Positions 7,767 to 16,389 of a stretch of DNA of 64,000 bases are shown piece by piece. A program made the position numbers and the translations under genes. The stretch comes from Lutibacter sp. (lineage in GTDB: Bacteria > Bacteroidota > Bacteroidia > Flavobacteriales > Flavobacteriaceae). Position 1 is the first letter of the stretch; the number at the start of each line of letters is the position of its first letter. The notes beneath the pieces were generated by a model. It did no database searches and was not told the origin of the DNA. It was given only the letters and a program-made list of their open reading frames with translations. The DNA lies in contig JAUXPH010000040.1 in the NCBI GenBank assembly GCA_030683995.1, positions 62,001 through 126,000 on the forward strand, in the 5' to 3' direction.

Positions 7767-9872
7767 TTAACTGATGTTTGCCCAAAGCGTGCTGTCTTTG
7801 CTCAATTCCTGATAAGCGACTCTTATAAACCTATTTTCCGGCAAATTTAAATCGGGATCTTTTTCCAACAACGCCATCGCCATCATTCTTGCGGTTTTTA
7901 ACAGACCTGCATCTTTTACCAAATCGGCGATTTTCAGGTTCAGGATGCCGCTTTGCTGGGTGCCCATCAAATTTCCGGGTCCCCTCAGTTTTAAATCCAC
8001 TTCCGCAATTTTGAATCCGTCACTGGTTTCCACCATGGTTTTTAACCGCACTTTCGCATCATCAGACAATTTAAAGCTCGACATTAATATGCAATAGCTC
8101 TGTTCTGCCCCACGACCAACCCTGCCGCGCAGCTGATGCAGTTGCGACAAGCCAAAACGCTCGGCACTTTCTATCACCATCACGCTCGAATTGGGAATGT
8201 CCACCCCCACTTCAATCACCGTAGTCGCCACCATAATTTGGGTTTCCCCTTTTTGGAAACGCTGCATTTCATATGCCTTGTCCTCCGCCTTCATTTGTCC
8301 GTGCAAAATGCTGATCTGGTATTGCGGCCTGGGAAATTCCCGCACAATACTTTCATAACCATCCATCAAATCTTTATAATCCATGGCTTCCGACTCATTG
8401 ATCAACGGATACACCACATACACCTGTCGGCCTTTGGCAATTTCTTCCTTCAAAAATTTAAATACCGACAACCGGTTTGCATCGTATCGGTGCGCCGTTA
8501 CCACTTCTTTTCGGTTTGGTGGCAACTCATCAATTACGGAAATGTCCAGATCGCCATACAAACTCATCGCCAAGGTGCGGGGAATTGGCGTTGCCGTCAT
8601 TACCAAAATGTGCGGAGGCAGCACATTCTTTTTCCACATTTTTGAACGTTGTTCCACCCCAAAACGGTGCTGCTCGTCGATAATGGCTATGCCCAAATTA
8701 TAAAATTTCACCTTGTCTTCAATCAGCGCGTGTGTTCCTATCAATATGTGCAGCTCTCCCGATTCCAGTTGCTGGTGAATCACTTTCCGTTCCTTTGCTT
8801 TGGTTGAACCTGTGAGCAGTTTTATGTTCACGTTCATTCCTTTCAGCAAATTGGTCAATGCATTATAATGTTGGTTGGCTAGGATTTCCGTAGGTGCCAT
8901 AAAAGCGGCCTGAAATCCGTTATCCATCACAATCAAAATGGTGAGCAAGGCCACAATGGTTTTTCCTGATCCCACATCGCCCTGTAGCAAACGGTTCATT
9001 TGGGCGTTGGATCCCATATCTTTCCTGATTTCCTTCAACACCCGTTTTTGAGCGTTTGTAAGTTCAAAAGGAAGGTTGTTGTTGTAAAAATTGTTAAAAT
9101 AATCACCCACTTTCAGAAAAGGATAGCCTTTAAACTTCGATTTTCTGATGAGTTTCTTCCGAAGCAATTGCAATTGGATAAAAAAGAACTCCTCAAATTT
9201 AAGACGGTTTTGTGCCTTGGTCAGCAATTCCTGATTTCTTGGAAAATGGATGTTCAGCAAGGCTTCGTTTTTTGAAATGAGTTTTAATTTTTCAATGACA
9301 TCTGCAGAAAGTGTTTCTTTAAAATTGCCGTGAAACTCTTCAAACAAGCTTTGGATCATTTTGGAAATCACCCTGTTGGTGACACCTTTGTTCACCAGTT
9401 TTTCGGTGGATGGATACACTGGCTGCATAGCGGTGCGCAGACTTTTATGGTATTCGGTCAGCAATTCCATTTCAGGATGCGGCATAGAGAACAGGCCTTT
9501 AAAAAAATTCGTTTTTCCAAAAATCACATAAGGCGTGTTTATTTTAATCGCCTCTTTGATCCATTTCATGCCCCTGAACCACACCAATTCCATCGTGCCG
9601 GTTTCATCCGCAAAAGTGGCCACCAACCTGCTTCCTTTTGGCTGTTGCACGGTTCTCAATTCCGTTATTTTCCCCAGAATCTGAATTTCTGAGTTATTTT
9701 GCTGCAGCTGGCTGATTTTCATAAACTGGGAACGGTCGATATACCGGTTCGGAAAAAAATTCAGCAAATCACCAAACGTGCGGATGCCGAGTTCCGATTT
9801 CAACAAATCGGCCCTGCCCGGACCTACACCCTTTAAATAGGATATTGCAGTGTTTAGGTTATTAATTGACAT
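7767..9872 (-). CDS. recG: ATP-dependent DNA helicase RecG
   Basis: 701 residues from the ATG at 9870-9872 (MSINNLNTAISYLKGVG). A start six codons upstream is possible, but this one fits known RecG starts better. The N-terminal wedge/OB domain (about 60-150) is followed by the superfamily 2 helicase core: Walker A GDVGSGKT, DEQH box IIDEQHRFG, TATPIPRT, and the C-terminal helicase motifs with VATTVIEVGVDIPN and QLRGRVGRG. RecG remodels stalled replication forks and branch-migrates Holliday junctions. It is a single gene between repeat-rich gaps. The stop codon is one base from the MITE-like element, but the reading frame is intact and the C-terminal TRG-like region (LRGPGNLMGTQQSG) is present. 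Confidence 0.96.
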   Translation of the reverse strand: MSINNLNTAISYLKGVGPGRADLLKSELGIRTFGDLLNFFPNRYIDRSQFMKISQLQQNNSEIQILGKITELRTVQQPKGSRLVATFADETGTMELVWFRGMKWIKEAIKINTPYVIFGKTNFFKGLFSMPHPEMELLTEYHKSLRTAMQPVYPSTEKLVNKGVTNRVISKMIQSLFEEFHGNFKETLSADVIEKLKLISKNEALLNIHFPRNQELLTKAQNRLKFEEFFFIQLQLLRKKLIRKSKFKGYPFLKVGDYFNNFYNNNLPFELTNAQKRVLKEIRKDMGSNAQMNRLLQGDVGSGKTIVALLTILIVMDNGFQAAFMAPTEILANQHYNALTNLLKGMNVNIKLLTGSTKAKERKVIHQQLESGELHILIGTHALIEDKVKFYNLGIAIIDEQHRFGVEQRSKMWKKNVLPPHILVMTATPIPRTLAMSLYGDLDISVIDELPPNRKEVVTAHRYDANRLSVFKFLKEEIAKGRQVYVVYPLINESEAMDYKDLMDGYESIVREFPRPQYQISILHGQMKAEDKAYEMQRFQKGETQIMVATTVIEVGVDIPNSSVMVIESAERFGLSQLHQLRGRVGRGAEQSYCILMSSFKLSDDAKVRLKTMVETSDGFKIAEVDLKLRGPGNLMGTQQSGILNLKIADLVKDAGLLKTARMMAMALLEKDPDLNLPENRFIRVAYQELSKDSTLWANIS

Positions 9873-9899
9873 TTGGCTTTTTGAAAACACGAAGATAAG

Positions 9900-10003: not shown

Positions 10004-11164
10004 CTAAGGTGCTTTATCAATGGTAATTGCCCTTACAACCGCCTTATCGCCATAACGTTCACGCATTTTATCCATTGCGTGGTACAAATTCACCATTTTG
10101 GCATTGTCTTCAAACAAATTAATCTGCTGTCCGCCACTCACCAAATCGCTAAACTTCACGCCTATCAATCTGACCAGCAACCGCCTTTGGTACAAGCTGT
10201 TGTAAAGTTCCATCACAATTGGCAAAATAGTGTGGTCGGCCGAACTGTAAGGTATTTTTTTCTGTTTTGTATACGTTTGAAAATCGGAATATCGGATTTT
10301 AAACGTAATGCACGCAGTTAATTTATTGCTTTTTCGCAATTGAAAAATCAAACTTTCTGTCATAGCAACAATAGTGCTTTTCAGTTTTTCAAGATCTGTG
10401 GTGTCTTTATCAAAAGTGTTTTCCGATGAAATGGATTTCCGTTCGTGGTATTTTACAACGGGCGAGTTGTCTATGCCGTTCGCTTTTTTCCAAATGCCGC
10501 TGCCGTGTTTTCCAAAAACTTTGGTCATCATCCCAATCGGCATTTCCTGAACGGTTTGAATGCGTTTTATGCCCAAGTCGCACAATATATTGTAGGTTTT
10601 TTCGCCCACCATCGGAATTTTACGGACAGATAGCGGTGACAGAAAAAACTTTTCGGTGCCGCTGTTTATTTTCATTTCGTTGTTGGGTTTCGCCTCTCCC
10701 GTGGCGATTTTTGAGACGGTTTTGTTAACGGACAAGCCAAAAGAAATGGGTAATCCGGTTTCTTTAATTATTTTTTTACGCAATTCCGAAGCCAATTGGT
10801 GACAGCCAAAAAATTTGTCCGTTCCCGTTAAATCGATATAAAATTCGTCTATGGAAGCTTTTTCATACAAAGGCACCGACTCGTTAATCACATCGGTCAC
10901 CAATTTTGAAAATTTGGTATAAATTCCTGAATTGCCTCGCAATACAATGGCTTCCGGACATAATTGTTTCGCCATCCGCATAGGCATTGCAGAATGAACG
11001 CCATATTTACGGGCTTCATAACTGCACGAAGCCACCACGCCTCTATCCGAAATTCCGCCAATTAATATGGGTTTTCCTTCCAGTTTGCTGTCGATTACGC
11101 GCTCGCAGGACACAAAAAAAGTATCCAAATCCATATGTACAATAGAACGTTCCAAAGTGCTCAT
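10004..11164 (-). CDS. dinB: Y-family DNA polymerase IV (DinB-like)
   Basis: 386 residues. Y-family landmarks: the metal-binding opening SIVHMDLDTFFVSCE, the SYEARKYGVHSAMP finger motif, the second acidic site YEKASIDEFYIDLTG, and the helix-hairpin-helix region GEKTYNILCDLGIKRIQTV, then the little-finger domain. These polymerases copy damaged templates at low fidelity. The start codon overlaps the stop of the upstream dnaE-type gene by four bases (ATGA), so the two polymerases are translationally coupled. With the divergent XRE-S24 regulator and the exonuclease/GIY-YIG gene it forms a probable damage-response module. No beta-clamp motif was assigned with confidence at the C-terminus. Confidence 0.94.
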   Translation of the reverse strand: MSTLERSIVHMDLDTFFVSCERVIDSKLEGKPILIGGISDRGVVASCSYEARKYGVHSAMPMRMAKQLCPEAIVLRGNSGIYTKFSKLVTDVINESVPLYEKASIDEFYIDLTGTDKFFGCHQLASELRKKIIKETGLPISFGLSVNKTVSKIATGEAKPNNEMKINSGTEKFFLSPLSVRKIPMVGEKTYNILCDLGIKRIQTVQEMPIGMMTKVFGKHGSGIWKKANGIDNSPVVKYHERKSISSENTFDKDTTDLEKLKSTIVAMTESLIFQLRKSNKLTACITFKIRYSDFQTYTKQKKIPYSSADHTILPIVMELYNSLYQRRLLVRLIGVKFSDLVSGGQQINLFEDNAKMVNLYHAMDKMRERYGDKAVVRAITIDKAP

Positions 11165-14130
11165 ACCAGTAATTTTTTAGGAATATCGGCATATCTCGGA
11201 TCCTGGATAATGGCCAGTTTTTCCATTTTTTCTATTTCAACCGTGATACAGTCAAATTCCTCCGTCACTTTTCCCGTTAATTCATACACGCCTCTTCCTT
11301 TAAACGGATATTTTTTTGCGGCTGGCGGAAAATGTACCGTATCAATATGTTCTCCTTTTACATCCGTAAAATTGCCAAAATACATCAAATCGCCTTTAGA
11401 AGTGCTGACTCTTTTTGCCGTTATGTAATAGCCGTAAACTGTTACGTTTTTGCCAATGTAATGTGCCATATCACTCGCAACCAATTGTTGATGAATGGGT
11501 TGTGTCAATAAATCAAACGGACTGCACAATGGGAAACCGAGGTATTGAATTTCATCAAACGCATCTTCAAAACTGCTGCAACTGAGTTTCGGCGTGTTGT
11601 ACATAATTTTTTCCGATTTAAAAAGTGTGGAAACATGTTCTTCCAAACACACTTTATTCACTTTCATATAGGCTTCCCACAACAATTCGCGTTTATTTCT
11701 TCCCGTAAACTGAAAAGCATTTATTTTAATGAGAATGGAAAGCTGTTCCAATGAAATAGCAACACGTTCAATAAAATCGTCCAAATCCAAAAACAAGCCG
11801 TTTTTCTCCCGCTCGTTTACAATTTTTGTCGCATTTTTCAATTCAAAACTTTCCAGCATCATAAAACCTAAATAAATGTGGTTTCCTTCAATGCAATTCT
11901 GGTAACCAGACTTGTTAATGGTTGGCGGATGAATAACTGCACCGTTCATTCTTGCCTCGTGCACATAATATTCCGGCTGGTAAAATCCGCCGAAATTGTT
12001 AAGCGTTGCCACCAAATATTCCAGCGGATAATAGGCTTTTAAAAACAGACTTTGGTAGCTTTCAACCGCGTAGGAAGCCGAATGGCCTTTGGCAAAAGCG
12101 TAACCTGCAAAACTTTCAATTTGTCGCCAAATTTCTGAAGTCAGCTCATAACTATGCCCCTGATTTTTGCAATTTTCAAAAAACTGGGCCTGCACTTTTG
12201 AAAATTCTTCTCTTGATCTAAATTTTCCGCTCATTCCGCGCCGCAACATATCCGCTTCACCCAAAGTTAAACCGCCAAAATGATGCGCCACTTTAATCAC
12301 ATCTTCCTGATAAACCATCACGCCAAAAGTTTCGGGCATAATTTTAAGCAATATCGGATTCGCTTCTTTTCTGCGTTCGGGGTTTCTGTAGCGCAAAATA
12401 TATTCCCGCATCATCCCCGATTTTGCAACGCCGGGACGAATTACCGAACTCGCGGCCACCAATCCCAAATAATTATCCACCTGCAATTTTTTCAGCAACA
12501 TCCGCATCGCGGGAGATTCTACATAAAAGCAGCCAATGGCCTTCGCATTTTTCAGCAGGTATTTAATTTTTGAATCTTCTTTGAAGCGTTTGATGTCGTG
12601 AATGTCAATATCGGGATGCGCTGGATGGTTGTATTTCACAATGTCAACCGCTTCCCTAATTTTTCCCAACCCGCGCTGACTTAAAATATCAAATTTATAC
12701 AAGCCAACATCTTCTGCCACAACCATATCAAACATCGTGGTTGAAAATCCTTTTGGCGGCAAATAAGTGGCGGTATAACAATCGATTGGCTTTTCTGAAA
12801 TTAAAATTCCGCCGGGATGAATGCCCAAATAATTGGGAAATCCCTCAATATATTTGCTGTAAATCAACACCAGTTTCGACAAGTCGTCCAACTCATTCGG
12901 ATTGAAATTCCGCATAGAAAGCTTGTCTATTTCTTCTTTCGGCAATCCAAAAACTTTTCCCAATTCCCTAACCGAAGCTCGGTATTTAAAGGTGTTGTAA
13001 ACGGCAATCAACGACGTGTTTTTAAATCGGCCAAAAATAAAATTCATCACATCATCCCGGTCGCGCCAGGAAAAATCCAAATCGAAATCGGGCGGATTTA
13101 TTCTGTATAAATTGATAAAACGTTCAAAATATAAATCCAGTTCTATGGGATCAACGTCGGTAATTCGCAGCAAATACGCCACAATGCTATTGGCGCCGCT
13201 TCCCCTGCCTACATAATAATATTTTTTGCTTCGGGCATATTTCAATATTTTCCAATTGATTAAAAAGTAGGAAACAAATTGTTTTTCCTGAATCATTTGA
13301 AGTTCTTTTTCCAATCGCACAAACACCCGTTTCCCCAATTTTTTATACCGATAATTTAATCCGTCATACGCCAGTTTTCTCAGCAGTTTAAAATCCAGTT
13401 CCTCATTGTTGCTGTAGGTTCTCTGATTTTTAGGCTCATTTTTAGAAAAATCAAAGCTGATGTGACAATGGTCCAACATCCGCTGTGTGTTTTCAATAAT
13501 TTTCGGATATTCTTCAAACATATCTTTCAACGCTTTTTCAGAAATCATAACGTCCGATTCGGCTCCTTGTTCCGATTTTGGCAGTTTGCTCAGCAAAACA
13601 TTGTTGTCGATGGCGCGCAACAATCGGTGCGTGTTAAATCCTTTTTTATGTTGAAATGAAACTGTTTGCAACACCACCAATTTATCCTGATGCAATCGCC
13701 ATTCAGAAAACTTCAGCTGATTTAAATCGGAAGGTTTTACGCCCATAAACTCATTTTCTTGAAGCTCCATCACCGTATTTTGATACGGATAAATCACATA
13801 CGTGTCCGCAATGTATTTTGCCCGTTTTGGAATCGTTATTTTATCCAAATGCAAAAATTCCGACAGGTATTTATTCAGTTGCCGCAAAGCCTCATTATTT
13901 TTTGCCAGCATCACAAATTGTTGCTGCGCACCATTTCTGAAATCGATGCCCAAAACTGGTCTTATGTTGTATTTTGGAGCCAAACGCACAAAATCCAAGT
14001 TGGCCGAAGTGCTGTTGATATCGGTCAACGCCATTACCGTAATATTGTGCTGAAATGCCTGCTGCAACAAGGCTTCCGGCGCTATTGTGCCATATTTTAA
14101 ACTATAATATGTATGGGTGTTCAAATACAT
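11161..14130 (-). CDS. DNA polymerase III alpha subunit, short (error-prone DnaE-like) form
   Basis: 989 residues, about 170 shorter than a replicative DnaE. Domain order: N-terminal PHP domain (NTHTYYSLKYG, VMALTDINS), C-family polymerase palm with catalytic acids in PPDFDLDFSWRDRDD, fingers with YVGRGSGANSIVAYLL and FAKGHSASYAVESYQ, tandem HhH region, and a C-terminal OB-fold (GKNVTVYGYYITAKRV). The PHP motif reads HTYYS rather than HSxxS, and proofreading by PHP is unlikely. Co-transcription with dinB, short length and location beside an S24 regulator suggest a translesion polymerase like DnaE2 of ImuAB-DnaE2 cassettes rather than the chromosomal replicase, but this is inference; a second, longer dnaE elsewhere in the genome would support it. 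Confidence 0.9.
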   Translation of the reverse strand: MYLNTHTYYSLKYGTIAPEALLQQAFQHNITVMALTDINSTSANLDFVRLAPKYNIRPVLGIDFRNGAQQQFVMLAKNNEALRQLNKYLSEFLHLDKITIPKRAKYIADTYVIYPYQNTVMELQENEFMGVKPSDLNQLKFSEWRLHQDKLVVLQTVSFQHKKGFNTHRLLRAIDNNVLLSKLPKSEQGAESDVMISEKALKDMFEEYPKIIENTQRMLDHCHISFDFSKNEPKNQRTYSNNEELDFKLLRKLAYDGLNYRYKKLGKRVFVRLEKELQMIQEKQFVSYFLINWKILKYARSKKYYYVGRGSGANSIVAYLLRITDVDPIELDLYFERFINLYRINPPDFDLDFSWRDRDDVMNFIFGRFKNTSLIAVYNTFKYRASVRELGKVFGLPKEEIDKLSMRNFNPNELDDLSKLVLIYSKYIEGFPNYLGIHPGGILISEKPIDCYTATYLPPKGFSTTMFDMVVAEDVGLYKFDILSQRGLGKIREAVDIVKYNHPAHPDIDIHDIKRFKEDSKIKYLLKNAKAIGCFYVESPAMRMLLKKLQVDNYLGLVAASSVIRPGVAKSGMMREYILRYRNPERRKEANPILLKIMPETFGVMVYQEDVIKVAHHFGGLTLGEADMLRRGMSGKFRSREEFSKVQAQFFENCKNQGHSYELTSEIWRQIESFAGYAFAKGHSASYAVESYQSLFLKAYYPLEYLVATLNNFGGFYQPEYYVHEARMNGAVIHPPTINKSGYQNCIEGNHIYLGFMMLESFELKNATKIVNEREKNGLFLDLDDFIERVAISLEQLSILIKINAFQFTGRNKRELLWEAYMKVNKVCLEEHVSTLFKSEKIMYNTPKLSCSSFEDAFDEIQYLGFPLCSPFDLLTQPIHQQLVASDMAHYIGKNVTVYGYYITAKRVSTSKGDLMYFGNFTDVKGEHIDTVHFPPAAKKYPFKGRGVYELTGKVTEEFDCITVEIEKMEKLAIIQDPRYADIPKKLLV

Positions 14131-14214
14131 TTTTTCAAAAAAAATTAGGCGGTAAACTTTTTTTTGCTAAATTAGCTCAAAATATTAGCAATTGTTGCTC
14201 ATAAATTTAGCATT
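14131..14214. promoter_or_regulatory. Divergent control region with three dyads, likely operator of the XRE-S24 regulator
   Basis: The 84 bases between the dnaE-type gene and the XRE-S24 gene contain GCTAAATTAGC (14166-14176, palindrome around one base), AGCAA-3-TTGCT (14187-14199) and ATAAATTTAGC with palindromic core TAAATTTA (14202-14211). All are built from the words TTAGC/TTGCT. They are spaced about two helical turns or less apart and lie within promoter distance of both genes. No clean TAnnTTTG box was found, so the promoters themselves are not placed. Operator function is inferred from position and symmetry. Confidence 0.5.
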
Positions 14215-14988
14215 ATGAATTATTTGTCACAAAATATCAAACACATCAGGACCTTAAAAGGTTTGACGCAGGAGCAATTTGCGGAGGATTTAAAAGTCTC
14301 CCGCTCGCGCATAAGTTCTTATGAAGAAAACAGGGCCATTCCTCCTGTCGAATTTTTAATCGACTTGTCCGATTATTTTAAAATTCCCATCGATATTTTA
14401 ATCAAAAATGATTTGTCAGGCGCAAAAGATGTTTCGTTTATTGAAATTGGAAACAGAAGGGTTTTATTTCCCATTACCGTTGATGGCGCTAACGAAGATT
14501 TGATAGAAATTATTCCGATTGAAGCTTCCGCAGGTTATTTAAGAGGCTACGCCGACCCGGAATATATTGAGCATTTGGAGAAAATTAAATTGCCGTTTTT
14601 GCCCACGGGAACGCACAGGGCATTTCCCATAAAAGGAGATTCTATGTTGCCGGTAAAAAGCGGTTCTTATATTGTGGCGCGTTTTGTTGAAGAAATAAGC
14701 AACCTAAAAGACGGTAAAACGTATATTGTGCTCACGTTAAACGACGGCATTGTTTACAAGCGGGTTTTTAGCAAAATAGCAGAACACAATATGTTGTTGC
14801 TGGTTTCCGACAACAAAAAATACGATGCTTATTATGTGCCTGTTGATGAAATACTGGAGTTGTGGGAATTTACCTGCAGCATCAACACGCAGGAATATGA
14901 GGAACACGAATTAAAAATAAGCAGCATTGCCGCTATGTTAAATCAGTTGGGAATTGAGTTAAAAGCACTTGAAAAATCGATTAAATAA
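14215..14988 (+). CDS. XRE-family regulator with S24 (LexA/UmuD-like) self-cleavage domain
   Basis: 257 residues. Residues about 5-60 form a Cro/C1-type helix-turn-helix (IRTLKGLTQEQFAEDLKVSR, then SRISSYEENRAIPP). A C-terminal peptidase S24 domain carries the catalytic serine in KGDSMLPVKSG (Ser143) and a lysine in VYKRVF (Lys182). A plausible Ala-Gly cleavage bond is present in EASAGYL (Ala106-Gly107). The Ser-Lys and bond-Ser spacings are close to those of LexA and UmuD. Such proteins repress until RecA filaments trigger self-cleavage. The gene faces the polymerase operon across a palindromic region and is directly followed by the nuclease gene (TAA then ATG). It is therefore the obvious candidate regulator of the whole module. 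Control of damage genes is inferred, not shown. Confidence 0.9.
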   Translation: MNYLSQNIKHIRTLKGLTQEQFAEDLKVSRSRISSYEENRAIPPVEFLIDLSDYFKIPIDILIKNDLSGAKDVSFIEIGNRRVLFPITVDGANEDLIEIIPIEASAGYLRGYADPEYIEHLEKIKLPFLPTGTHRAFPIKGDSMLPVKSGSYIVARFVEEISNLKDGKTYIVLTLNDGIVYKRVFSKIAEHNMLLLVSDNKKYDAYYVPVDEILELWEFTCSINTQEYEEHELKISSIAAMLNQLGIELKALEKSIK

Positions 14989-16389
14989 ATGTACACAATC
15001 ATTGACATAGAAACCACCGGACACAGTTCAAAAATTACGGAAATCTCCATTTTTGTGTATGATGGCGAAAAAATAATTGACGAGTTTACGACCCTTGTGA
15101 ATCCGGAATGCAGCATTCCTCCTTTTATCACCAATTTAACTGGAATTACCAATGCGATGGTGAGCAATGCGCCTAAATTTTATGAAATTGCCAAAAAAGT
15201 GGCCGAAATTACCAAAGACACCATTTTTGTGGCGCACAACGTAAACTTCGATTACAACATCATACAAAAGGAATTTAAGGATTTGGGATTTGAGTTCAAG
15301 CGAAAAAAACTGTGCACCGTTCGCTTATCGCGAAAATTAATTCCAAATTTAAGATCGTACAGTTTGGGTGCGCTTTGCGTTACGCAAAATATTGTGATTA
15401 AAGACCGTCATCGGGCAAAAGGAGATGCGGAAGCCACGGTGATTTTATTCGAAAAACTATTGTTTTTGGATAATGATCAAACAGTATTTAACACTTTTTT
15501 AAATCCGCGCTCAAAACAATCGACCTTGCCGCCTTTATTGCCGAAAAAAACGGTTGATGAACTTTCGGAAAATTCGGGTGTTTATTATTTCAAAAATGAG
15601 AAAAATGAAGTCATTTATGTTGGAAAAGCCAAAAATATAAAACAACGCGTGCTGAGTCATTTTTATGATAAATCAAAGAAAGAAATTACGATGTGTCTGG
15701 AAACAAGCAATGTTTCCTGTGTTGAAACCGGCAGTGAACTGTTGGCGTTGTTATTGGAATCTTCAGAAATAAAAAGCATCTATCCCAAATACAACCGGGC
15801 ACAAAGAAGGGCTCAGGAAAGTGTCGGTTTATTTTCTTACGAAGACAGAGATGGCGTTATCCATCTGGCTTACAACCGATTGAAATTGGTTACTTCTCCT
15901 TTAATGAAGTTTTCCAATATTACGGAATGCCGGATTTTTCTGGAGAAATTATGCGAAGAATTTGAATTATGTCCGAAATATTGCCATCTGCAAACCAATG
16001 TTTCCACTTGTTTTCATTACCAGATAAAAAAATGCAAAGGCGTTTGCAAGGAAGAAGAACCCGTTGATTTGTACAATTTAAGAGTGCAAAAGGCTATTGA
16101 TTCCTTAAAATTTAATACAGAAAATTTTATCATTAAAGAAACCGGCAGAACCACCAATGAATATGCTTATGTTTTAATTTTAAACGGAATTTACAAAGGA
16201 TTTGGCTACGCCAGCAAAAAACAAAAAATCACTTCCGCTGAAGGTTATTTTGGAATGCTAAGCGCACAAAAAGAAAACAACGATGTTCGTCGGATTTTAA
16301 ATGCCTATGTGGGCAAAAATAGCACGAGCATTGTTCCGATAGATTATGTCAGCACGCCGTTTGAACTTAATTTTTCTACAAACAGTTAG
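14989..16389 (+). CDS. DEDD exonuclease / GIY-YIG endonuclease fusion (Cho/UvrC-like)
   Basis: 466 residues. Residues 3-160 are a DnaQ-type 3'-5' exonuclease: Asp6/Glu8 in IIDIETTG, His83 and Asp88 in VAHNVNFDYN, His141 and Asp146 in HRAKGDAEAT. Residues about 195-280 form a GIY-YIG nuclease (SGVYYF, then VIYVGKAKNIKQRV), as in the UvrC N-terminal half and Cho. A cysteine set at 328/332, 341, 349 and 353 (CFHYQIKKCKGVC) has the 8- and 4-residue spacing of the UvrC iron-sulfur site. The UvrC C-terminal RNase H-like and HhH domains are missing. It starts immediately after the XRE-S24 stop codon, so the two are co-transcribed. Probable role: incision and trimming near bulky lesions alongside DinB/DnaE; inferred from domains and context. 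Confidence 0.88.
   Translation: MYTIIDIETTGHSSKITEISIFVYDGEKIIDEFTTLVNPECSIPPFITNLTGITNAMVSNAPKFYEIAKKVAEITKDTIFVAHNVNFDYNIIQKEFKDLGFEFKRKKLCTVRLSRKLIPNLRSYSLGALCVTQNIVIKDRHRAKGDAEATVILFEKLLFLDNDQTVFNTFLNPRSKQSTLPPLLPKKTVDELSENSGVYYFKNEKNEVIYVGKAKNIKQRVLSHFYDKSKKEITMCLETSNVSCVETGSELLALLLESSEIKSIYPKYNRAQRRAQESVGLFSYEDRDGVIHLAYNRLKLVTSPLMKFSNITECRIFLEKLCEEFELCPKYCHLQTNVSTCFHYQIKKCKGVCKEEEPVDLYNLRVQKAIDSLKFNTENFIIKETGRTTNEYAYVLILNGIYKGFGYASKKQKITSAEGYFGMLSAQKENNDVRRILNAYVGKNSTSIVPIDYVSTPFELNFSTNS

Follow-up and report, generated by a model that had tools for sequence, protein, structure and literature searches.

Which protein takes the place of LexA in a bacterium whose genome carries a block of putative damage-tolerance genes and a single S24-type protein? 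The question is raised by a locus in a 64,000-nt stretch of DNA from Lutibacter sp., a marine member of the Bacteroidota, here called the window (contig JAUXPH010000040.1 of assembly GCA_030683995.1, positions 62,001 to 126,000, forward strand). In it, a dnaE-type gene and a dinB-type Y-family polymerase gene (DinB/PolY) diverge from the genes of an HTH_3-Peptidase_S24 regulator and of a nuclease with exonuclease and GIY-YIG domains. The original prediction had proposed a self-cleaving S24 repressor that acts in LexA's place over two polymerases and a nuclease. This is supported by cleavage and catalytic residues present in 81/81 regulators, by operator-like sites in the shared spacer and by the regulator being the sole S24 match of the genome. 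We consider it highly probable that these genes make up a compact SOS locus controlled by a non-canonical, phage-CI-like LexA, in a Lutibacter-like organism of the Flavobacteriaceae.

Since the regulator family, the polymerase pair and the nuclease architecture have all been published, the locus belongs to a known kind, of which it is a well-preserved representative, and does not define a new one; its regulator type was described in 2021. HTH_3-S24 repressors are reported to control SOS genes in Bacteroidetes that lack LexA (Sanchez-Osuna et al. 2021, PMC8565304), through the motifs GGA-N5-TCC or CTAA-N5-TTAG, with electrophoretic mobility shift and mitomycin C data. The targets predicted in that paper include the dinB-DNA polymerase III alpha operon, the COG2932 repressor itself and an exonuclease with a GIY-YIG domain (COG0847). 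Mitomycin C is also reported there to induce two genes that lie opposite each other in Elizabethkingia anophelis, one for the regulator and one for an error-prone polymerase. The Bacteroidetes SOS-like regulon that had been predicted for this regulator fits the evidence but is not new, being already contained in that work. The present analysis adds the tandem spacer sites, the finding that the S24 and Y-family matches are the only ones in the genome, a regulon possibly of one locus, and paralogues of the regulator in sister species that consist of the helix-turn-helix (HTH) part only.

The regulator

Domains of the locus proteins were assigned with Pfam and NCBIfam. The regulator matches HTH_3, the penta-helical HTH of PF01381, in its N-terminal part (5.1e-14) and Peptidase_S24 in its C-terminal part (1.4e-7). 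Judged by this architecture it is CI-like (HTH plus S24), and the label "Cro-like" that it had been given does not apply. Residues were counted over 81 sequences, namely the window and 80 related loci; the latter are the best-scoring of 541 confirmed relatives from one scan, many come from one genus, and the counts are not independent. The putative cleavage site (Ala106-Gly107) and both residues of the Ser143-Lys182 dyad are kept throughout. The C-terminal tail is strongly conserved in sequence. Where the published type has an extra C-terminal alpha-helix, a structure model of this regulator predicts a helix at residues 230-256, with a predicted local distance difference test score (pLDDT) below 50 over most of it (mean pLDDT of the model 65, predicted template modelling score 0.41). 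The regulator's closest relatives share 96-99% identity with it and come from metagenome-assembled genomes named Lutibacter, Gelidibacter, Flavobacteriaceae or Flavobacteriia.

The assembly of the window (3.08 Mb, 99.95% complete) holds one S24, one Y-family and one RecA match, and the regulator is present in one copy. The same S24 search matched Escherichia coli and Bacillus subtilis as controls. With a single match, the LexA/UmuD-type S24 domain is therefore found in this genome only in the regulator. A canonical LexA (winged HTH plus S24) was not found in the genome, the sole S24 match having an HTH_3 N-terminus.

The likeness to the Bacteroidetes non-canonical LexA, as that type is presented in PMC8565304, can be summarised as (i) HTH_3 plus S24 with Ala-Gly, Ser-Lys and a conserved C-terminal tail; (ii) a self-operator of CTAA-N5-TTAG type, in two copies; (iii) dinB-dnaE and a GIY-YIG exonuclease as neighbours or targets. 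As in Elizabethkingia, an error-prone polymerase gene lies opposite the regulator. An HTH_3 N-terminus with an S24 C-terminus is also the build of HdiR and of phage CI repressors; the Bacteroidetes regulators are reported to form a clade of their own, apart from these (PMC8565304).

The shared spacer and its putative operators

The spacer contains two 16-nt direct repeats, GCTCAAAATATTAGCA and GCTCATAAATTTAGCA, which lie 22 bp apart and both fit CTMA-N5-TTAG. A position weight matrix (PWM) built from 49 sites of the window and its closest group (loci L003-L027), a training set that includes both spacer sites, scores them at 18.5 and 19.6; no other place in the 64-kb window scores above 12.0. 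All 26 upstream sequences of this closest group carry one or more sites within one mismatch of CTAA-N5-TTAG, located at -39 or -17 relative to the regulator start (-38 in L020); both positions are occupied in 14/26. Among all 81 upstream sequences, 37 have a site at this stringency, compared with a mean of 9.8 and a maximum of 18 over 200 shuffles.

Bacteroidetes promoters have the form TAnnTTTG. A perfect copy stands upstream of the regulator in 44/79 sequences (shuffled mean 1.9; two of the 80 loci, with too little upstream DNA, are left out), mostly near -15, where operator 2 lies. In the window, operator 2 overlaps such an element of the regulator promoter (14202-14209), and the perfect palindrome GCTAAATTAGC on the dnaE side overlaps another on the minus strand (14167-14174). 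Both of the window's promoter elements match at 5/6 only, a level that shuffles also often give. The palindrome is a candidate for a third regulator contact or for an element of the dnaE promoter.

Several observations weigh against a LexA-like role for the regulator at these sites. CTMA-N5-TTAG matches the window five times, at 4 places, with 2.6 expected, and 16/100 shuffles reach 5; the pattern being this common by chance, it is therefore position and pairing that single out the two spacer sites. With CTCA opposite TTAG, each site lacks the symmetry of the published palindrome, from which it deviates at one position, and substitutions in either dyad are reported to have abolished binding by both regulators tested (PMC8565304). 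No site at one mismatch or fewer is found in 44/81 upstream sequences. Regulons of Flavobacteriaceae mostly use GGA-N5-TCC according to the same source, and this motif, looked for in the spacer, is not there, unlike in most regulons reported for the family. The operator is also the single feature by which the regulator would be assigned to the CTAA-N5-TTAG group, from which, as published, the locus differs in having CTCA-N5-TTAG operators and an apparently one-locus regulon. Genome-wide, a search for the strict operator GCTNA-N5-TTAGC returns 19 rows, which fall on 16 distinct places, and the reversed control returns 16 rows, so that there is no enrichment, and recA has no good site (best score 5.6, versus 18.5 and 19.6 at the locus). 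Finally, many relatives lack the polymerase arm beside the regulator. As to the upstream sequences without a site, we read them as motif drift in other genera: in more distant genera the site positions are kept in many sequences and the letters drift (CTAC/CTTA with TAAG/GTAG).

Extent of the regulon

The absence of enrichment bears on how far the control of this regulator may reach. At the 14 strict-site places other than the two in the spacer, no repair gene was recognised by eye close behind, and three of them sit inside open frames; the upstream regions of recA, uvrC and the SRAP gene score at most 5.6. With no further strict site shortly upstream of a recognisable repair gene, the regulon may have shrunk to this locus alone; diverged sites would escape this pattern, and few genes were checked. 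Alternatively, the locus could be only the best-marked part of a broad SOS regulon under this regulator, with recA, uvr genes, SRAP and uracil-DNA glycosylase among its members. Regulons of about nine operons are reported in several families (PMC8565304), the uracil-DNA glycosylase gene has a weak site (PWM score 11.4) 268 bp upstream of its earliest possible start, and the repair genes examined were few, with a pattern that diverged sites evade. Against this stand the near-equal count of the reversed control and the low scores before recA, uvrC and SRAP, and we regard a wide regulon as unlikely.

The stretch GCTTAGTTTTTTAGC occurs twice in the genome (G000:C21:81877 and 83781; loci L090 and L091), at the starts of two similar lipoprotein-like genes, and looks like a coding repeat rather than an operator.

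The polymerase pair

The dnaE of the locus is not the only one of the genome: of the two DNA_pol3_alpha matches, the other has a 1473-aa open frame, the second and longer dnaE that the original prediction had proposed to look for. LTDH is the PHP consensus in DnaE. In the locus DnaE the motif is degenerate (LTDI, with Ile in 42/44 sequences), which suits a DnaE2, and the polymerase Asp residues are invariant (44/44). Bacteroidetes DnaE2 proteins are reported to have shorter cores (PMC3919608).

In the Y-family polymerase the catalytic Asp/Asp/Glu is likewise invariant in 44/44 sequences, as would be expected of the full DinB, not a dead ImuB, that had been predicted. Its clamp-binding type motif keeps Q347 and F351 in 44/44 and L350 in 41/44 sequences. 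The tail that follows aligns without gaps over 22 residues to the N-terminus of the genome's own RecA with a score of 38 (500 shuffles: mean 12.1, maximum 30); a tail of this sort on PolY has been described as a RecA-NT motif (PMC6511836, PMC12926913). The same sources report that Bacteroidetes pair an active Y-family polymerase with DnaE2(B), a type separate from ImuB cassettes. By its features the pair here matches this published DnaE2B-PolY-RecA type, a putative mutasome of Bacteroidetes with Cellulophaga algicola as an example: the Y-family member looks active and has the RecA-NT-like tail and clamp motif, the adjoining DnaE2-like polymerase has a degenerate PHP domain, and no ImuB was found. 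No difference from that type emerged in the features tested.

A second explanation would be a classical ImuA-ImuB-DnaE2 mutasome with a diverged ImuB. In that system as in this locus, the pairing of a Y-family protein and an additional DnaE goes with an S24 repressor (LexA in the classical case), and a degenerate PHP domain is found in DnaE2. In contrast to the classical system, the Y-family member here is catalytically intact and the repressor is a different one. No ImuB was found, the genome's one Y-family match having an intact active site, and no ImuA is present among the listed open reading frames of the locus, as the original prediction had noted, although no genome-wide search for ImuA was made. 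Given also the published separation of the two types, a classical mutasome is very improbable.

The nuclease

The nuclease had been predicted to be UvrC-like; by its sequence features it is of Cho+Exo type and not a UvrC. The genome has a separate open frame of 616 aa whose GIY-YIG domain is of UvrC type. Sixty nuclease sequences reach 85% length or more. All 60 share the GIY-YIG Tyr/Gly/Arg/Glu and six Cys within residues 322-353, and each DEDDh position is conserved in no fewer than 59. The assigned domains reach to about residue 380, short of the C-terminal 80 or so residues. The NCBIfam models PRK07883, Cho and UvrC all score below their curated cut-offs. An N-terminal DEDDh exonuclease, a UvrC/Cho-type GIY-YIG domain and a Cys-rich region are shared with the Cho+Exo or Cho-like+Exo nucleases (PMC1564403; PRK07883), for which it was proposed that the fused exonuclease digests the damaged strand from the nick. 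The cases of that 2006 paper differ in coming from Betaproteobacteria and Actinobacteria.

In one Flavicella locus the reading of the nuclease holds a stop codon (L057:8777-10153). The genome also has seven small stand-alone GIY-YIG frames (93-128 aa), on contigs C33, C54, C71 and C29.

Layout of the locus

The coordinates of the locus (Table 1) confirm the layout that had been predicted. The dnaE and dinB genes overlap by 4 bases (11161-11164), the gap to the divergent XRE-S24 gene measures 84 bases, and the nuclease gene begins at the base directly after the regulator's stop codon, leaving a gap of 0.

Table 1 Features of the locus, in window coordinates
Feature	Position	Strand	Remarks
dnaE-type gene	14130..11161	-	989 aa; PHP, DNA_pol3_alpha, finger, HHH_6 (Pfam/NCBIfam)
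dinB-type Y-family polymerase gene (DinB/PolY)	11164..10004	-	386 aa; IMS, IMS_C (Pfam/NCBIfam)
Clamp-binding type motif QINLF, residues 347-351 of Y-family polymerase	10112..10126	-	from sequence
RecA-NT-like tail, residues 355-376 of Y-family polymerase	10037..10102	-	by match to the genome's own RecA
Divergent promoter/operator spacer, dnaE versus regulator	14131-14214	.	exactly 84 bases
Perfect palindrome GCTAAATTAGC	14166..14176	.	dnaE side of spacer; putative role
Operator 1, CTCA-AAATA-TTAG	14176..14188	.	7/8 positions of CTAA-N5-TTAG; -39 from regulator start; common in close relatives
Operator 2, CTCA-TAAAT-TTAG	14198..14210	.	7/8 positions of CTAA-N5-TTAG; 22 bp from operator 1
HTH_3-Peptidase_S24 regulator gene	14215-14988	+	257 aa; Bacteroidetes non-canonical LexA type
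Ala106-Gly107 cleavage-site codons	14530..14535	+	A and G in 81/81 regulators
Catalytic Ser143 codon	14641..14643	+	81/81 regulators
Catalytic Lys182 codon	14758..14760	+	81/81 regulators
RNase_T + GIY-YIG nuclease gene	14989-16389	+	466 aa; DEDDh exonuclease + GIY-YIG + Cys-rich, Cho+Exo type

Transcribed in the same direction as dinB, and starting 113 bp beyond it, is a recG gene (9890..7767, minus strand). It was considered as a fifth gene of the locus and left out because none of the 80 related loci has a RecG match, although the contigs of some stop near dinB.

Conservation among relatives

A polymerase match diverges from the regulator within 300 bp in 48 of the 80 related loci (remnants or partial in L013 and L080), and an exonuclease/GIY-YIG gene lies within 700 bp downstream of it in 58; both distances were chosen by the analysts. 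Three loci with dnaE only are cut by contig ends, and L079, with dinB 480 bp away, was counted as without a polymerase. The exact four-gene order of the window recurs in 16/80 loci (with split polymerase matches in L049), and 10 further loci have the same four genes with dinB before dnaE. The four-gene order proposed in the original prediction is thus recurrent but not general.

The 38 genomes of the genus are themselves related, and counts over them are not independent. The dnaE of this cassette (at least 76% identity, contig fragments included) is present in 23, all of them with regulator matches: full length in 20, and in pieces on different contigs in three (G005, G014, G031). Nine genomes have the regulator and no cassette dnaE (G033 with a 120-residue dnaE remnant), and six have neither, including G017 and G035, which are less than 90% complete. 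Loss of the polymerase arm is suggested by leftovers of the dnaE 5' end next to a full regulator: 120 residues in L013 and in L130 of G033, and two fragments of some 30 residues in L126 of G011. A different contig of G011 (L125) carries a full-length match to dnaE, adjoined by an open frame of 38 aa that corresponds to the start of the regulator.

Such association also bears on whether the regulator stands here by chance. Many bacterial XRE-S24 genes are phage-derived, and the HTH_3 domain here resembles that of phage CI, so that the protein could be a leftover prophage-type or unrelated XRE-S24 repressor that stands beside the polymerases by accident. Among the 38 genomes, however, the cassette dnaE is never found without regulator matches; the neighbourhood recurs, operator-like sites occupy the shared spacer, and an SOS function is published for the regulator family (PMC8565304). 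One scan of viral contigs returned 14 pattern matches and 0 confirmed relatives of the regulator, which counts against a prophage leftover and says nothing on the ultimate origin of the protein. An accidental neighbour is accordingly a highly implausible account of the S24 protein, and we keep to that of a non-canonical LexA.

The two gene orders, dnaE-dinB and dinB-dnaE, raise the possibility that different polymerase cassettes were swapped behind one conserved regulator. The DnaE tree splits completely by gene order (support 100/100), and dnaE-first rows do not form one clade in the regulator tree. Yet a single dnaE-first origin in the regulator tree is not rejected by the approximately unbiased test (43 rows, p = 0.215), and vertical descent with one rearrangement suffices. 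Swapping seems distinctly unlikely to us and, despite the two deep DnaE clades, is not claimed.

An HTH-only paralogue in sister species

The genome of the window has only the one-locus form described above. In 6/38 genomes of the genus (G002, G003, G004, G006, G023, G037), dnaE lies apart from the full regulator, which is found at another place in the genome. The slot opposite dnaE, about 85 bp away, is filled in these loci (L113-L118) by an HTH-only paralogue of the regulator. All 5/5 complete copies are 72 aa long, L116 being cut by the contig end; all five end in LxxLE plus one residue, and four keep the SRSRISSYE stretch of the HTH. The genes of L113 and L116 have a GTG start. Pfam finds HTH-type domains in the five complete copies and S24 in none; a sub-threshold match to sigma-70 region 4 occurs in two. 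The ratio of non-synonymous to synonymous differences (pN/pS) is 0.16-0.51 among these copies (10 pairs) and 0.14-0.33 over the same part of full regulators (21 pairs), values from which the HTH-only paralogue is judged to be under purifying selection. The possibility that these genes are plain pseudogenes is disfavoured by their constant length, shared C-terminus and pN/pS.

The strict GCTNA-N5-TTAGC stands before the HTH-only gene in 6/6 genus copies, at the position it has before the full regulator (-18 including the flanking G); a distal second site is strict in L114 only. An SRAP gene of 214-215 aa (identified with Pfam in all four cases) follows 10-16 bp after the HTH-only gene in 4/5 complete genus copies. 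In L115 the SRAP-like frame looks broken, by eye, beside an intact HTH-only gene, which suggests that the HTH-only gene is kept independently of SRAP. Of 299 sampled genomes of the family, 79 gave a match at 1e-18, and two of them, G006 and G149, showed a short HTH-only frame. In G149, of another genus (L133), a 75-aa HTH-only gene faces dnaE, with an SRAP-like gene (216 aa, by eye) 96 bp downstream; no operator within one mismatch was found at this copy. Counting the genus copies and G149, SRAP follows the HTH-only gene in 5/6 copies with visible downstream DNA.

An HTH-only protein would be uncleavable, and it could therefore re-close the polymerase operon once RecA has destroyed the full regulator. 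On these grounds we offer the tentative suggestion, in which our confidence is limited, that the SOS switch of the sister species gained a Cro-like partner, so that a non-cleavable paralogue acting as a second repressor would create a CI/Cro-like circuit on the chromosome. By title or abstract start, the open-licence literature yielded no description of a Cro-like partner in Bacteroidetes SOS systems, nor of an HTH-only paralogue in a Lutibacter SOS response, and the arrangement appears new.

Model for the function of the locus

We propose that in the absence of damage a dimer of the S24 regulator would sit on the two tandem CTMA-N5-TTAG sites and shut the promoter that it shares with the nuclease as well as the divergent one of dnaE-dinB. 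Upon damage, RecA filaments would trigger self-cleavage between Ala106 and Gly107 through the Ser143-Lys182 dyad, leading to expression of both arms. Lesion bypass would then fall to two enzymes: the Y-family polymerase, presumably tethered to the clamp by QINLF and to RecA by its tail, and the short DnaE2-type polymerase, which would work without proofreading. The Cho+Exo nuclease would be expected to nick beside bulky lesions and degrade the damaged strand. Once RecA filaments are gone, newly made regulator would close the locus again.

The gene anatomy, the intact residues, the recurrence of operator-like sites in relatives and the absence of a second S24 or Y-family match in the genome are observed here. 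That the regulator binds, is cleaved and represses in this organism, and that the enzymes have the roles proposed, is extrapolated from these and from other species, in which binding to such motifs and induction by mitomycin C are reported (PMC8565304).

If the HTH-only paralogues of the sister species act, phage-type SOS regulators can re-create the Cro half of the phage switch. The locus itself is a very compact example of a Bacteroidetes SOS system, with one regulator, one 84-bp operator region, two mutagenic polymerases and one incision nuclease, and it offers a simple test bed for the minimal content of a chromosomal SOS response.

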